From Levilactobacillus lindianensis (GTDB lineage Bacteria; Bacillota; Bacilli; Lactobacillales; Lactobacillaceae): a stretch of DNA of 64,000 nt. The stretch spans positions 1 to 64,000 of the forward strand of contig NZ_RHOD01000002.1 of assembly GCF_003946095.1 (NCBI RefSeq), in the 5' to 3' direction. Under the pieces are notes generated by a model. That model did not search any database and was not told the DNA's origin. It saw only the letters and a program-made list of their open reading frames with translations. Positions 54,322-60,123 of this stretch are shown in pieces; positions within the stretch are counted from its first letter, which is position 1; every line of letters begins with the position of its first letter. The translations under genes were made by a program, and so were the position numbers.

Positions 54322-56142
54322 CTACTTCTGAGCAATCACTAATTTCTTATTGGCTGTGACATACTTGCCGTTAGTCAATTGGAATCGCGTCGTTTTCTTA
54401 TAGCCGACAATCTTCTTAACTCTTAGTGTCTGGCCCTTCTTATAATGACGGACCTTACCCTTTAAGGACTTTTGCTTATAAGCATTAACCCCTTTGGCAT
54501 TCAGGACCTTTACTTTACTCTGCTTCTTAGCGTAATAGACCGAAGAAACATAAGCACTCTTGGCCGTGATATAGCCTGTCTTGCCAGCCGTCTTGGAGTG
54601 ATGGTTGACGTCACGAACCTTGTAACGACGGTAACCCTGCTTAGACTTGGCATTTCCGGTCACCACAAACATGGGCCGGTTAGTCCGTTTCTGCTTACGG
54701 TAAGTAACCTTCTTGGTCTTCTTCGAGAAATTCTTGCTGCTATAGAGGTTGATGGTCTTCTTGGCGTAAAGCACACCCGTGATTGGGACGACCGTTGCCC
54801 CAGAACCACCAGTTGAGAGATCAGTGGCGTAGTGGAAGGTCACCGTTGTCGGCGTGCTTCCGAAAGTCCCACGCTCATCCCCTGTCACTTTGTCCAACTT
54901 ATAGCCGGTAATTGCCAGCCGTTCAGCGGTATAGGTGGCCCCAAACGTTCCCGTTAAGATTTGATCGTTGGCGAGTTTCTTGCCTTGGGCGTCCACGTAT
55001 TTCACAGTAACGGGTTGCCCCAGCGTGACTGGTGGATTCACCGGTGGCGTCACCGGTTCAATGACTCGCTCCGTTGGCTCCCAGACGTAAGTCTCTACGG
55101 CTGCTGGATTGTGGTCACCCTTATAGAGCGCCGCAACTTCAGCTCCCTTGGCATAACGCTCACCCAATGGATTCTGAACCGTCCCTTCACCGACAGCTTC
55201 CCAACTGTGAAGAAATTCATCGTCGTCCATGGTGTTGGGATCGTTAAGATAAGTGTTATCCTTCGTAAAAATTGTCTTGGGTCCCAGAGTCAGTTGCCAA
55301 ATAGTCGATTTCCCATTAAACATCGAGCTTCCACCAAAGTCAGCTGGTGGCGCAAACGAGTCAAGCCGCAGGATTTGAATATTACTGCCACTAAACATGT
55401 AGGCCGCATTCTTAAGACTGGCGAAAGTGAGTTTGGACATATCCAATTCCTGCAAAGCAGCATCATTTAAAAACATTGACGTGGTATTGGTGACATTATC
55501 CGTATTAAAGTGCGAAAAGTCCAAATTGGCAACTTTTCTGAGTTGATAGAACATAAACGACATGTCGGTCACGTGACTCGTATCAAAATGAGAGATGTCC
55601 AGTGACTGTAAGACGTTGTTTCCAGTCCGACCACCGGTTGCACCGACATAAGATTGCCCCGAAAGAAACATCCCTTTCATGGTCGTTGCTGCGGACGTAT
55701 CCAACTTATCAAGATTGACATATTCGCTGACAAAGCCAAATTGGGCAAAGAGGTTGGTGGCATTCGACGAAGTGGCTACCGGTCCATCCAGGACAACTTT
55801 GGTCACTTGCTCCCCAACCTCGTTCAGGTCTGCTTCGGTCGGCGCCGAGTTTCCTTCTTTAAGCGCAATCTGCGAGACCAATTGTCCCCTATTCCCAGCA
55901 ATTTCAGAACTTGTCGGCTCGGCCAATGTCCCGGCTTCCAAATGAAGTTCGCCAGAGGTCGTCAAATACCAATGAACCCCATAGTCCCCTTCGACGGCAA
56001 TGTCTGACTTAGTCGGGTCAGATGTCGTGGCTGCCTTTGCTGTCACCGCTGTCCGCACACTTGGGCCAACCAATGTGGCCAATGGCTGCGTCACCCCTAA
56101 GGTAAGACTCGCGAGTAAAATTGTTGCTTGCCATTTTTTCAT
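54322..56142 (-). CDS. BspA-like surface protein with MucBP and DUF5776 domains (paralogue 2)
   Basis: 606 residues, same plan as its neighbours: signal peptide, BspA repeats (about 150-275; LDISHFDTSHVTDMSFMF), MucBP (about 375-445, VTVKYVDAQGKKLAND) and two DUF5776 repeats with YSSKNFSKKTKKVTYRKQKR. It is closest to the gene at 56514. Likely an adhesin for mucus or other host or plant glycans; the ligand is unknown. ATG 56142 follows GAGGAG. Confidence 0.88.
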   Translation of the reverse strand: MKKWQATILLASLTLGVTQPLATLVGPSVRTAVTAKAATTSDPTKSDIAVEGDYGVHWYLTTSGELHLEAGTLAEPTSSEIAGNRGQLVSQIALKEGNSAPTEADLNEVGEQVTKVVLDGPVATSSNATNLFAQFGFVSEYVNLDKLDTSAATTMKGMFLSGQSYVGATGGRTGNNVLQSLDISHFDTSHVTDMSFMFYQLRKVANLDFSHFNTDNVTNTTSMFLNDAALQELDMSKLTFASLKNAAYMFSGSNIQILRLDSFAPPADFGGSSMFNGKSTIWQLTLGPKTIFTKDNTYLNDPNTMDDDEFLHSWEAVGEGTVQNPLGERYAKGAEVAALYKGDHNPAAVETYVWEPTERVIEPVTPPVNPPVTLGQPVTVKYVDAQGKKLANDQILTGTFGATYTAERLAITGYKLDKVTGDERGTFGSTPTTVTFHYATDLSTGGSGATVVPITGVLYAKKTINLYSSKNFSKKTKKVTYRKQKRTNRPMFVVTGNAKSKQGYRRYKVRDVNHHSKTAGKTGYITAKSAYVSSVYYAKKQSKVKVLNAKGVNAYKQKSLKGKVRHYKKGQTLRVKKIVGYKKTTRFQLTNGKYVTANKKLVIAQK

Positions 56143-56471
56143 GGTAGTCTCCTCAACTTTCAAAAAATGATATTGTGAAATCGCTTACTTTTCCCCTAAA
56201 CATAGTAACACCGTTAATTTATTTTTGCCAGCATTTTATTGCACACATTTCAAAAAAGTTCCCATTCTTTTCCTTTCATTATCTCATACATTTTAATATT
56301 CATTGATTTATATCACCTGTTATCGCCTTGGTTGCGGGGCTTCTGGTGATAAGGCGTCCTGATTTGAATTTTCTAGGATGGCCTCTGGCCTTATGCAACA
56401 GAGTAAACGAAATCAGCAATTGTCAAAGGCTGAACTCTCTTATTGACGGGACCGACCTCACTTTTATATGT
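56143..56471. other. Spacer between BspA-like genes
   Basis: 329 bp, AT-rich. A minus-strand -10-like TACTAT lies about 65 bp before the gene. No ORF or RNA gene recognised. Confidence 0.4.
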
Positions 56472-56513: not shown

Positions 56514-58349
56514 CTATTCGGCAATAACTAACTTCTTGTTACCAGTGACGTATTGGCCATTGGTCAATTGGAAGCGGGTAATCTTGTTGTTACTGATGAT
56601 TCGTTTAACTTTGAGCGTTTGGCCCTTCTGGTAGTGACGGACCTTATCCTTCAAGTTCTTTTGCTTGTAGCCGTTGATACCTTTAGCTCCTAGCACTTTC
56701 ACTCTCTTCTGGTTTAACACGTAGTACGCCGAGGAAACATAGTCGTATTTTGCCGTGATGTAACCCGTCTTACCAGCTGTCTTGGAGTTCTGGTTCACGT
56801 CACGAACCTTGTAACGCTTGTAGCCTTGTTTACTCGTTGCGTATCCGGTCACCACAAATACTGGTCGGTTGGCCCGTTTCTGCTTGTGGTAAGTGACCTT
56901 AGGTGTCTTATCCGTAAAGTTCTTGTTACTGTGCAAGTTGATGGTCTTCTTGGCGTAAACAATCCCGTTCACTGGCACGGACCCATCGGATTCTCCGCCG
57001 GTCGTTTGGTGTGGAATGTAATGGAAGGTCACCGTGGTTGGTGTGCTCGTAAAGGTTCCTTTGGTATCACCGGCAACCTTGTGGAGCTTGTGGCCGTTGA
57101 TGGCGAGACACTCTGCCTTATAAGCTTCTCCGACATTCCCCGTCAACACTTGATCAGCTGCGAGGCGCTTGCCCTTGGTATCTAAATGCTTCACAGTCAC
57201 CGGTTGTCCTTGCTCTACGGGCGCTGGGGTTGGTTCAACTTCGCGCTCGACTGGCTCCCAGACATACGTTTCAACTGCACTTGGCTTATCTTCACCGGCA
57301 TACAGTTTGGTCACAGCTCTTCCGGTTTCATACTTATCACCTAACGGGTTCTTAACCTTCCCGCTACCCACGGCCTGCCAGTTGTCAAGAAAGGCCTCAT
57401 CTTCGATAGTATTGGCATCATTCAGGTAGGTGTCCCCAGTTAGGGTCGTCTTCGGTCCCAAGGTTAACTGTTGGAGCGTTGATTTACCACCAAACATTGC
57501 CCAGCCAGTAAAGTTAGCCGGTGGTGCGAATGAGTCGAGTCGTAGCACTTCTAGGTCACTCCCACTAAACATGAAGGCCGCAACCTTCAAATTGGCGAAA
57601 GTCAGGTGTGACATATCGAGTGATTTCAATGATGAGTTTCCAAAGAACATCGACCCAGCACTCGTCACCTGGTCAGTGTTGAAACTCGATAAGTTATAAT
57701 TAGAAACTTTTCGTAACTGAGTGAACATGTTCGTCATGTCTGTCACGTGACTCGTATCAAAGTGCGAAACATCCAATTCGGTCAGCACGTTATTGCCATT
57801 TTTCGTTTCGTTATCTTCCGGGTCCACGTAGGCTTGGTCCGAATAGAACATCCCCTTCATCGAGGTTGCCGCCGACGTGTCCAATTTATCAAGGTTAACA
57901 TATTCGCTCACATGACCAAACTGGGCAAAGAGGTTAACTGCATTGGCTGAAGTTGCCACTGGTCCGTCCAAGACCACTTTGGTAACTTGTTCACCGACCT
58001 CTTGTAATTGTGGTAGTTTGGGGTCGGTAATCCCCTGTGCTTCAGCAATCTGTGTCGATAACTGCCCATTGTTTGAGCCGTCACCCGTGGTTGGTGGAAT
58101 TGGTGTATCCTCTAATGTTCCTGCACCTAAATGTAATTCGCCCGCGGCCGTCAAGTACCAATGCACACCGTAGTCCCCTTCAGCGACAATATCGCCTTTA
58201 GTTTCGTCGGAGTGGCTCGCTTCAGATTCCGTGGTTGCGGCCTGAGCCGTTACAGTTGTTTGTGCGCTAGGTGTAGCTAATACAGCAATAGGTTGGGTAA
58301 TTCCAAGGACGAGACTCGTGAATAGGAGCGTTGCTTGCCATTTCTTCAT
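56514..58349 (-). CDS. BspA-like surface protein with MucBP and DUF5776 domains (paralogue 1)
   Basis: 611 residues, first of the tandem trio in transcription direction. Signal peptide (about 1-38), BspA repeats (about 155-285; LDVSHFDTSHVTDMTNMF), MucBP (about 385-450, VTVKHLDTKGKRLAAD) and two basic DUF5776 repeats ending NGQYVTGNKKLVIAE. Each trio member has its own terminator, so each may be switched separately. SD GAGGAAACTACC before ATG. Confidence 0.88.
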   Translation of the reverse strand: MKKWQATLLFTSLVLGITQPIAVLATPSAQTTVTAQAATTESEASHSDETKGDIVAEGDYGVHWYLTAAGELHLGAGTLEDTPIPPTTGDGSNNGQLSTQIAEAQGITDPKLPQLQEVGEQVTKVVLDGPVATSANAVNLFAQFGHVSEYVNLDKLDTSAATSMKGMFYSDQAYVDPEDNETKNGNNVLTELDVSHFDTSHVTDMTNMFTQLRKVSNYNLSSFNTDQVTSAGSMFFGNSSLKSLDMSHLTFANLKVAAFMFSGSDLEVLRLDSFAPPANFTGWAMFGGKSTLQQLTLGPKTTLTGDTYLNDANTIEDEAFLDNWQAVGSGKVKNPLGDKYETGRAVTKLYAGEDKPSAVETYVWEPVEREVEPTPAPVEQGQPVTVKHLDTKGKRLAADQVLTGNVGEAYKAECLAINGHKLHKVAGDTKGTFTSTPTTVTFHYIPHQTTGGESDGSVPVNGIVYAKKTINLHSNKNFTDKTPKVTYHKQKRANRPVFVVTGYATSKQGYKRYKVRDVNQNSKTAGKTGYITAKYDYVSSAYYVLNQKRVKVLGAKGINGYKQKNLKDKVRHYQKGQTLKVKRIISNNKITRFQLTNGQYVTGNKKLVIAE

Positions 58350-58698: not shown

Positions 58699-59346
58699 CT
58701 AGCGTTTTGAACGCACGGTCTCGATGAACTCTGCTAAGGCCTGCGGATCGGTCAACTGCCGATTACACTGGTCACTGTCACGGCAAATATAATTGCCGTT
58801 ACGTGTGTAGGTCCCCAGCCCCGACTTCTTCGTCGTGGAGACAAAGAGCGAGACATTCCCAATCGTGTGGCAAATGGCACACAGATTTTTAACGGTCTTG
58901 GGACCCATATCACCCTGAATACCGATCAATTTGCCTTGATACGGCGCCACCAGATATTTCTTCTGATTACCCCCATCATTCCAGCCCAGATACGTGAGCT
59001 GATGTCGGTTGACCGACGCCCATTCGGGCTGTTTCAGTTTCTTGACCTTCCTAAACAATTTACTCAATTGCTTCGGCGTCAGATCTGGAAAGGGGTCGAC
59101 TAGCGGTTCCAGCGTCGGAAGTAAGGCTGCGGCAGCCTCACGTGTCAATCGATCCGGCTTCAGACGCTCTAAGAACGCTTCGGTAATCGGATTGTCAGTC
59201 GGTAGAATCGCCTGAATCTCGGCAATGGTGCTGTCGCGAATGACTCGCCGCATGCGGCTGTCGTTGACCGAGAGATAGGCGCTAACGAGCGTATTGACCT
59301 TCTGGGTGATATCACTATAGTTGTATGCAGTTATTGTTGTTTCCAT
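58699..59346 (-). CDS. FusB/FusC-type elongation factor G-binding protein
   Basis: 215 residues, the usual FusB length. N-terminal helical domain (about 1-85); C-terminal domain with KLFRKVKKLK, YLGWND and a treble-clef zinc finger: CAIC, NVSLF and GNYICRDSDQCNRQLTD with four cysteines. FusB-type proteins bind EF-G and release it from ribosomes, and can protect against fusidic acid. It lies downstream of smpB/rnr but has its own promoter and a leader that looks like a translational attenuator, so inducible expression is likely. Confidence 0.93.
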   Translation of the reverse strand: METTITAYNYSDITQKVNTLVSAYLSVNDSRMRRVIRDSTIAEIQAILPTDNPITEAFLERLKPDRLTREAAAALLPTLEPLVDPFPDLTPKQLSKLFRKVKKLKQPEWASVNRHQLTYLGWNDGGNQKKYLVAPYQGKLIGIQGDMGPKTVKNLCAICHTIGNVSLFVSTTKKSGLGTYTRNGNYICRDSDQCNRQLTDPQALAEFIETVRSKR

Positions 59347-59357
59347 GAATAAAGTTT

Positions 59358-59429
59358 CCTTTCAGATTTAAACCTGACACTTCTCTGAAAGGTAATGCAG
59401 AAAAGTGTCGCTAACAGCCAGCACTCTTC
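59358..59429 (-). promoter_or_regulatory. Four-segment translational attenuator of the FusB-type gene
   Basis: Segments on the minus transcript: S0 GAAGAGTG (59429-59422), S1 GACACTTTTCTG (59409-59398), S2 CCTTTCAGA...GTGTC (59392-59376), S3 TCTGAAAGG (59366-59358, contains the SD). S0 pairs S1 (8 bp) while S2 pairs S3 (9 bp), hiding the SD; alternatively S1 pairs S2 (12 bp), freeing it. Confidence 0.7.
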
Positions 59430-59452
59430 CGTACAAATAACGATGCCATCAT
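59411..59452 (-). CDS. Leader peptide of the attenuator (13 codons)
   Basis: Encodes MMASLFVRKSAGC then TAG. AAGGAG (59468-59463) lies 10 nt before the first ATG. The last seven codons cover segment S0, so a ribosome on them would prevent S0-S1 pairing. Small but well placed; translation is predicted, not shown. Confidence 0.6.
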   Translation of the reverse strand: MMASLFVRKSAGC

Positions 59453-59499
59453 CGTCGATCATCTCCTTGCATTCAGTTTTTTTAGCTGAATTGTTTACT

Positions 59500-59528
59500 A
59501 GTGTACCGAATCTACCAGCGGATTGCAA
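59500..59528 (-). promoter_or_regulatory. Promoter of the FusB-type gene
   Basis: TTGCAA (59523-59528), 17-bp spacer, TACACT (59500-59505) on the minus strand; predicted leader of about 147 nt. Confidence 0.7.
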
Positions 59529-59544: not shown

Positions 59545-59612
59545 AGAAGCGAGTGTGGCAAAAGGCAGTTAGTCAATGCGTATTAACCGCCGATAGACGT
59601 TTGGAACGCAAA
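59545..59612. repeat. Single-arm copy of the 51874 repeat
   Basis: Carries GGCAAAAGGCAGTTAGTCAA, CCGATAGACG and GGAACGCAAA in the same order as the copy at 51874-52017. Confidence 0.55.
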
Positions 59613-59642
59613 AAGTGCCTAAGACATTTGTCTCAGGCACTT
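59610..59642 (-). terminator. Terminator of the secG-rnr-smpB unit
   Basis: AAGTGCCTGAGAC / GTCTTAGGCACTT with T5 on the minus strand. Confidence 0.88.
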
Positions 59643-59649
59643 CCTTTAT

Positions 59650-60123
59650 CTAATAGCGTTTCATCACACGTGCAATCTGGCGGTCTTGCTCTCGTCGTTT
59701 GATGGTCTCACGCTTGTCATACTCCCGTTTCCCTTCGGCAACGCCAAGGAGAACCTTCGCAAACCCATGCTTGAGATACACCTTCAACGGAATCAAAGTG
59801 ACCCCTTTGTTCTGTGCCGCCAGTCCTAACCGGTGAATCTGCTTCTTATGCAGGAGCAGTTTCCGGTTACGAAGCGGATCATGGTTAAACCGATTACCTT
59901 GAACGTACTCACTGATGTGAATGTTCATTAGCCAGGCTTCACCATTGCGAATCTGAGCGAACCCATCTTGCAAGTTAATCCGCCGCTCACGTACCGATTT
60001 GATTTCGGTCCCAGTCAAAACCAGGCCAGCCTCAACCGTTTCGGTAACTCGGTAATCATGCCGAGCCTTACGATTTTGCGCCAAAAGATTATCTGGTGTT
60101 TTCTTGGATTTTGTTTTAGCCAA
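59650..60123 (-). CDS. smpB: tmRNA-binding protein SmpB
   Basis: 157 residues. [38 protein letters not shown] and the basic C-terminal tail [21 protein letters not shown] are diagnostic. It carries tmRNA to stalled ribosomes. It follows rnr by 15 bp, the common Firmicutes arrangement. Confidence 0.97.

Follow-up and report, generated by a model that had tools for sequence, protein, structure and literature searches.

The DNA analysed here is a stretch of 64,000 nucleotides (the window), and all features of the locus described below lie on its minus strand. A gene for a FusB-type EF-G-binding protein of 215 amino acids with an ATG start (58699..59346), recognised by its Pfam domains and by cysteine alignment, is located directly downstream of smpB (59650-60123; Pfam SmpB). 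The leader lies between smpB and the gene, and leader and gene together form what looks like a separate transcription unit. A terminator-like hairpin 3' of smpB (59610..59642; 13-bp stem, dG -20.6, a U run at its end) should separate smpB from the leader transcript. It is followed by a putative -35 box TTGCAA (59523..59528) and, after a 17-nt spacer, a putative -10 box TACACT (59500..59505), which share 8 of 12 letters with the consensus. With 8/12 letters the promoter fell below the threshold of the promoter scan, and the hairpin was missed by the terminator scan; both were found by reading the sequence and by pattern. The promoter pattern, TTGNNN-17/18-TAYACT, was present at 39 of 39 loci (L001-L039).

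The leader itself begins with a 5' hairpin near the presumed RNA 5' end (59471..59491), followed by a Shine-Dalgarno (SD) sequence AAGGAG (59463..59468) and an open reading frame of 13 codons plus stop, MMASLFVRKSAGC (59411..59452). A second hairpin (ACGAUG / CAUCGU, 59440..59455) spans the start codon of this frame, and segment S0 (59422..59429) lies within the frame, from the third position of codon 8 to the first position of codon 11. The segments S1 (59398..59409), S2 (59376..59392) and S3 (59358..59366) follow 3' of the leader stop in this order, with the SD of the gene, AAAGGA (59357..59362), overlapping S3. Two mutually exclusive folds can be drawn: in the OFF fold S0 pairs with S1 (8 bp, one G-U) and the 5' part of S2 pairs with S3 (9 bp), while in the ON fold S1 pairs with S2 (12 bp, one G-U). 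An earlier sequence-only reading of this DNA had described the promoter, the leader SD and reading frame, the four segments with these pairings and the AAAGGA, and all of them are present as described; the 5' hairpin and the start-codon hairpin come in addition. The leader length of 147 nt given in that reading holds only with a putative transcription start assumed about 7 nt after the -10 box.

A search with Rfam models at gathering scores returned only the tmRNA and two tRNAs in the 64-kb window. On the minus strand the terminator scan listed nothing within the leader; its sole terminator-like site is on the other strand, inside the gene. As the same scan had also missed the smpB hairpin, the region was checked by eye, and no U run was found 3' of S3. 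The control therefore looks translational, and transcription attenuation was rejected since no terminator was seen in the leader.

The protein matched both parts of its family past the cut-off: the N-terminal EF-G-binding domain (EF-G-binding_N, PF07299, E 7e-20) and the C-terminal treble-clef zinc domain (FBP_C, PF16571, E 2.5e-10). The cysteines C156, C159, C188 and C194 were invariant in an alignment of 14 sequences that included FusB of pUB101, with which the protein shares 34% identity. F156 and Y187 of FusB are reported to be needed for EF-G binding (PMC12008383); in the alignment the tyrosine is kept, and the F156 position is occupied by leucine. The scores against the NCBIfam models for FusB, FusC, FusD and FusF (119-141 bits) were far below all of the cut-offs (375-450). 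The closest named loci belong to L. humaensis, L. paucivorans and L. huananensis (94-96% protein identity), and a homologue from L. plantarum is listed among proteins with evidence for a resistance role or from inherently resistant species (PMC3352095). The protein of the window presumably acts as FusB does, by freeing EF-G from the ribosome.

On the 3' side of the gene lie two adjacent, similar minus-strand reading frames of 613 and 611 amino acids (54322-56163 and 56514-58349), which probably arose when a gene for a surface protein was duplicated in tandem; DUF285, MucBP and DUF5776 domains were found in the first, the only one of the two that was scanned.

Conservation of the leader and its linkage to the gene

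The FusB-type gene is present in 25 of 35 genomes of the genus Levilactobacillus. A covariance model of the leader (R1), built from 22 sequences (alignment A3), matched these same 25 genomes and none of the other 10. The alignment A3 misplaces three members at the 5' end (L016, L018 and L024), which nonetheless are still found with lower scores (99-103 bits). Across the family Lactobacillaceae, R1 matched 33 of 397 genomes, in all 33 cases at 3-8 bases 5' of a matched FusB-type gene and nowhere else. The gene was matched in 56 of the 397 genomes and in none of the remaining 341; 23 of the 56 (some of them partial gene matches) had no R1 match. Many of these R1-negative genomes that were looked at have unrelated leaders, and weak copies could have been missed because of the strict filters in the family search. 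A gene that stands behind a switch and is absent from 10 of 35 genomes of its genus looks like an inducible accessory protection gene, which does not support its description as a housekeeping copy in the sequence-only reading.

Conservation within the class of the window was followed in an alignment (A2) of 39 distinct sequences, i.e., the window and relatives chosen by protein match. All 39 keep the leader element, and pairing is retained in 97.8% of the cells for S0-S1, 99.7% for S2-S3 and 97.6% for S1-S2. The mean pairwise identity reached 0.955 in S1, 0.980 in S2 and 0.995 in the ten bases of S3 and the SD, against 0.578 in the spacer between S1 and S2 and 0.526 in the stretch from the SD to the ATG. 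For the SD region of the leader it was 0.967, for the arms of the 5' hairpin 0.510 and for codon positions 1, 2 and 3 of the gene 0.759, 0.868 and 0.416, respectively (39 loci). The leader reading frame is intact in 39 of 39 sequences (37 by script, L020 and L029 read by eye), and its stop codon lies 6-8 nt 5' of the S1 core in all of them. In L024 and L025 a base has been gained near the end of the leader, together with a new stop codon at the same spot. Within the class, therefore, no relative was seen that keeps the gene and loses the pairing or the leader frame; farther out the sequence of the leader changes, as in the R1-negative genomes.

The sequence-only reading had also pointed to compensatory changes in S0-S3 as a way of checking the folds. 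The pairing is indeed conserved, but not one S1-S2 pair is changed on both sides among the 39 sequences, as most bases of S1 and S2 must fit two partners and are conserved by invariance. Two-sided changes were found at five of the six pairs of the 5' hairpin (74.3% of cells paired) and at two of the six pairs of the start-codon hairpin (87.9% of cells paired).

These data bear on the possibility that the leader frame is a relic within a constitutive 5' UTR, whose conserved pairings only protect the mRNA. The presence of two extra hairpins would fit with this, and erm leaders also affect mRNA stability. However, an intact frame in all 39 sequences with a stop fixed at 6-8 nt before the S1 core, a new stop at the same place where a base was inserted, and identities of 0.955-0.995 in S1, S2 and S3 against 0.510 in the arms of the 5' hairpin make such a relic very unlikely.

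The position beside smpB and rnr, to which the sequence-only reading had drawn attention, is particular to this lineage and not conserved: smpB was near only 2 of 79 other named loci, counted in flanks of up to 2 kb, some of which were ended by contig ends. The gene neighbourhood differs between species, and the longest upstream reading frames of 14 loci, judged by eye, were EamA-like, acetyltransferase-like, permease-like and others. A tie of the unit to trans-translation through smpB was rejected on the basis of these two observations. Staphylococcal fusB islands are reported to insert downstream of smpB as well (PMC12561750). Secundilactobacillus oryzae (L123) has the leader class of the window and a protein 67% identical to that of the window, and S. 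odoratitofui (L152) has a leader of another class (MIRxVSS, see below) and a protein with 38% identity. This pattern suggests that leader and gene travel together, and they may have been transferred as a unit.

Ribosome position and access to the Shine-Dalgarno sequence

The cost in free energy of opening the gene SD was computed for the RNA without a ribosome and with the P site on each codon of the leader, under the assumption that the RNA is free from 16 nt past the first P-site base. For the window this cost was 4.3 kcal/mol without a ribosome; it fell to 1.9-2.5 when the P site was placed at codons 4-11 and rose to 5.1-6.1 at codons 12-13. A ribosome that finishes the leader closes the switch because S1 is then covered. 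The earlier proposal that a stalled ribosome on the last codons of the peptide would release the SD thus held in silico for codons 4-11 (SLFVRKSA), and not for the last two codons, on which the SD stays hidden. A base change inside S3 (UCUGGAAGG) was observed in L100 (L. parabrevis) and in L006; the modelled sequestration of these leaders is weak, with an OFF cost of 0.3 without a ribosome, and the change might be a natural variant with raised basal expression.

In the predicted sequence of events, the transcript would start at its own promoter, with the 5' hairpin formed first, and ribosomes would translate the 13-codon leader. Without a ribosome, S0-S1 and S2-S3 would form and the gene SD would be hidden; it would likewise be hidden after a fast passage to the stop codon, when S1 is covered and S2-S3 pairs. 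With the P site stalled or slowed on approximately codons 4-11, S0 would be covered, S1 would pair with S2, S3 would be left free and the FusB-type protein would be made, which would then free EF-G from the ribosome. Stalling would in this way switch the expression of the gene, and the natural cue is presumably EF-G held on the ribosome by fusidic acid or a similar inhibitor. Induction by fusidic acid itself would be expected by analogy with the plasmid-borne fusB.

Shuffled sequences gave an estimate of how unusual this behaviour is. The bulk folding energy of the leader was only modestly unusual (z -2.0, 9 of 200 shuffles), whereas none of 60 shuffles attained its switch statistic (10 of 500 when codons were sampled more finely) and none of 60 its end-versus-middle statistic, which was chosen after the first profiles had been seen. 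Both statistics were then applied to loci hand-picked for a plausible leader (57 of the 80 named loci plus the window in the equilibrium test). The mark was set at no more than 3 of 60 shuffles reaching the value of the real leader. On the equilibrium drop, with L122 and L142 dropped, only 26 of 56 loci passed. On the end-versus-middle difference, with L142 dropped and L122 shifted by one codon, 46 of 54 loci passed, including 28 of 29 in the class of the window. The eight loci beyond this mark were L124, L126, L133, L135, L144, L147, L150 and L151, among which Weissella confusa L126 had a D of 0.0. Three Mammaliicoccus leaders (L154, L161 and L165) failed the equilibrium statistic, and the end-versus-middle statistic could not be assigned to them. 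A chance origin from repeats by the gene start that happen to pair could appeal to the bulk folding z of only -2.0. It is hardly credible, as the element is conserved across 39 distinct sequences and linked exclusively to the gene, and in view of the shuffle tests and the scan of control reading frames (see below). The comparison of relatives carries far more weight here than the shuffle tests.

The stretch of productive stalling raises the question of whether the switch senses a drug-specific arrest of the nascent peptide, e.g., by macrolides as in ErmCL, with the FusB-type protein being part of a broader ribosome-rescue response. Macrolide resistance typically involves short leaders that contain arrest motifs, and codons 4-11, which make up the predicted productive stretch, have a DNA identity of 0.81-0.89 compared to 0.743 for the codons past S0. 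Part of this codon conservation is, however, explained by S0 and the start-codon hairpin. Moreover, residues 6, 8 and 9 of the leader vary within the class (F/L/S, R/Q/K and K/M, respectively), so that the leader does not evidently encode an ErmC-like arrest peptide, and a peptide of this type was rejected for this reason. The leaders of other genera (MIRxVSS, VSYLK, NATLLIQS, MQTKLHCS) are unrelated, a poor fit to a single drug-peptide arrest, and the known target of FusB-type proteins is EF-G. Overall, a drug-specific arrest is unlikely. The anatomy, the conservation, the exclusive linkage to the gene and the switching in silico support the earlier claim, and we consider it very probable that an erm-type translational attenuator controls this chromosomal FusB-type gene.

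Leaders outside the genus

A wider set of loci was covered by an automatic scan with a single rule, i.e., a leader in which the position of the ribosome shifts the opening of the SD by at least 2 kcal/mol. It took 79 of the 80 named loci (L175, having no gene start, was left out), with the start moved in 12. Of the loci from Lactobacillales 51 of 68 passed, as did all 4 from Listeria; 6 of 6 Staphylococcaceae loci (Macrococcus and Mammaliicoccus) and the single Bacillus locus failed. Among the 17 failing Lactobacillales loci, six had no candidate leader, and several others had a leader of a known class with too small a change. As a control, 0 of 42 other reading frames of the window passed, only six of which had any candidate leader.

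Another 65 loci outside the Lactobacillales, drawn from 158 matched genomes, consisted of the 30 best class-search matches (L060-L089, with L084 dropped for want of a start) and 36 loci hand-chosen across families. Eight of them passed, seven in a Staphylococcus-like group (g57) in which 11 genomes were matched and 7 of 8 fetched loci passed; the one that failed, L209, shares its score with three sister genomes. The g57 leaders are related to ML[HQ]xNATLLIQS, exactly so in four of seven, and the four g57 genes that were scanned had FusF or FusD as the best NCBIfam match, below the cut-off. An initial view of the Staphylococcus-like homologues as mostly leaderless, which came from a scan with a strict SD threshold, was rejected with this like-for-like result. 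Outside g57, 56 of 57 non-Lactobacillales loci failed, so that most FusB-type genes there seem to have no switch of the scanned geometry, beyond which leaders would be missed. Bacillus changyiensis L173 and four loci of group f8 (L074, L078, L085 and L086) have a strong-SD upstream reading frame with an [ST]HAK[PS] motif approximately 175-190 nt 5' of the FusB-type gene; lying farther from the gene than the attenuators do, these frames are possibly another kind of leader.

The leaders of other Lactobacillales genera are unrelated in sequence to that of the window. MIRxVSS leaders occur in Weissella, Ligilactobacillus, Tetragenococcus, Secundilactobacillus and some enterococci, VSYL[KA] leaders in other enterococci, GSLSVR in Weissella confusa and, outside this order, MQTKLHCS in Listeria. 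In the MIRxVSS class (alignment A4, 10 sequences), two-sided changes were found at four S0-S1 pairs and two S1-S2 pairs, although the S1-S2 measures are weak on their own (reached by 33 of 500 shuffles). There was one clean triple change, in L059 at columns 26/54/83 (S0 A to G, S1 U to C, S2 A to G), the kind of change to be expected where both of the exclusive folds are in use. Columns 23/57/80 were rejected as a second triple change: L050 alters S0 and S1 there but has the majority base in S2, and in the majority S1 and S2 form a C-A mismatch at this place. A record of E. faecalis in a plasmid collection has a FusB-type gene (43% identity to that of the window) with a MIR-type leader 5' of it, for which the switch test was weak (29 of 200 shuffles). 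In L128 (record titled Weissella confusa DSM 20196, JAAOED010000021.1) a leader variant, MPVFGSLSQQLLV, lies 229 nt 5' of the gene with no similar one nearer, unlike in L127; the record may stem from another species or contain a rearranged leader.

A hairpin over the start codon is shared by otherwise unrelated leaders, i.e., those of the window class, MIRxVSS, VSYLK, pUB101, Listeria and the Staphylococcus-like group (e.g., L158, L132, L090, L160 and L213), and may limit initiation on the leader. The hairpin of the window was matched or beaten by 23 of 500 shuffles, and the fold of 10 of 22 representatives ranks with the top 5% of their shuffles, a count that is descriptive since the representatives were hand-chosen, some of them are related and the idea came from viewing the folds.

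Two broader readings concern unrelated leaders with a common layout. Tentatively, stall-dependent attenuation could be ancestral or have evolved repeatedly for FusB-type genes in Lactobacillales and staphylococci, with the start-codon hairpin as a shared part of the sensor; the leaders would be unrelated in sequence because they sense the loss of EF-G turnover and not a peptide-specific arrest. If so, the genes would be an inducible defence against EF-G trapping by fusidic acid or natural inhibitors rather than housekeeping, and they might account for the low-level resistance to fusidic acid that is intrinsic to enterococci and lactobacilli. The second reading is a general sensor of slow translation (starvation, cold or any elongation inhibitor) that controls a housekeeping EF-G release factor. 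In keeping with it, the leader peptides are unrelated between genera with the layout kept, the toiL leader of E. coli answers several antibiotic classes (PMC12121999), and some chromosomal homologues may be housekeeping proteins (PMC12008383). Against it, no gene match was obtained for 10 of the 35 genus genomes and 341 of the 397 family genomes, and the neighbourhoods differ, as for an accessory gene. Overall, the general sensor is rather unlikely.

Comparison with known systems

One question for the chromosomal FusB-type genes is how they are controlled. A 2025 review states that the regulation of FusB homologues is unknown, and among the matches listed in the open-licence literature no paper dealt with leaders in front of such chromosomal genes in lactic acid bacteria. 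The attenuator proposed here gives a concrete, testable answer for one genus, which the survey extends to 51 of 68 Lactobacillales loci and to Staphylococcus-like chromosomes, and it argues for chromosomal FusB-type genes as inducible protection genes. PMC11611940 describes the fusidic acid resistance of enterococci as intrinsic and reports that fusB, fusC and fusD were not found in their genomes; a switch-controlled FusB-type gene is a possible cause of this resistance. The unrelated leaders also provide a set for asking whether fusidic acid stalls ribosomes without sequence preference.

Erm attenuators of the ermC type consist of four segments, which pair 1:2 and 3:4 in the OFF state and 2:3 in the ON state. 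The leader of the window resembles them in its four segments, in the exclusive OFF and ON folds and in the control by ribosome position: it has an SD-bearing leader frame, exclusive pairings, an SD within 3:4 that is released in silico by a ribosome on segment 1, and no intrinsic terminator. It differs in having no established arrest motif of the ErmC type, a different gene and an extra hairpin over the leader start codon. In toiL-topAI of E. coli, a stalled leader ribosome also alters the RNA structure at the ribosome-binding site of the next gene; that system, in turn, has a toxin-antitoxin target, Rho-dependent termination and a response to several drug classes (PMC12121999). The FusD/FusF-type genes of the Staphylococcus-like group g57 show the same switch behaviour behind leader frames, albeit with leader and stem sequences unrelated to those of the window.

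The closest parallel is fusB on the staphylococcal plasmid pUB101, for which translational attenuation has been reported, in line with the sequence-only reading (O'Neill & Chopra 2006, cited in PMC3352095, PMC12008383 and PMC12493156; also stated in PMC12190993). Both belong to the same gene family and share a leader frame with a strong SD, a gene SD hidden until the ribosome is in the middle of the leader, and a start-codon hairpin. The 20-codon leader of fusB, MLKDITYLKLLDLEYKMLCS, is unrelated to MMASLFVRKSAGC, yet its profile of SD opening costs is similar to that of the window (5.3 without a ribosome, 1.6-2.3 on codons 5-10, 4.0-6.0 on codons 11-18 and 4.9 on codon 19), except for a low cost again on the last codon, 20 (2.3); the drop was reached by 7 of 200 shuffles. 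The fusB of pUB101 is a plasmid resistance gene, and induction by fusidic acid is known only there, whereas the gene of the window is chromosomal. Attenuation is thus known for the plasmid-borne fusB, and the probable chromosomal case in Levilactobacillus is new.
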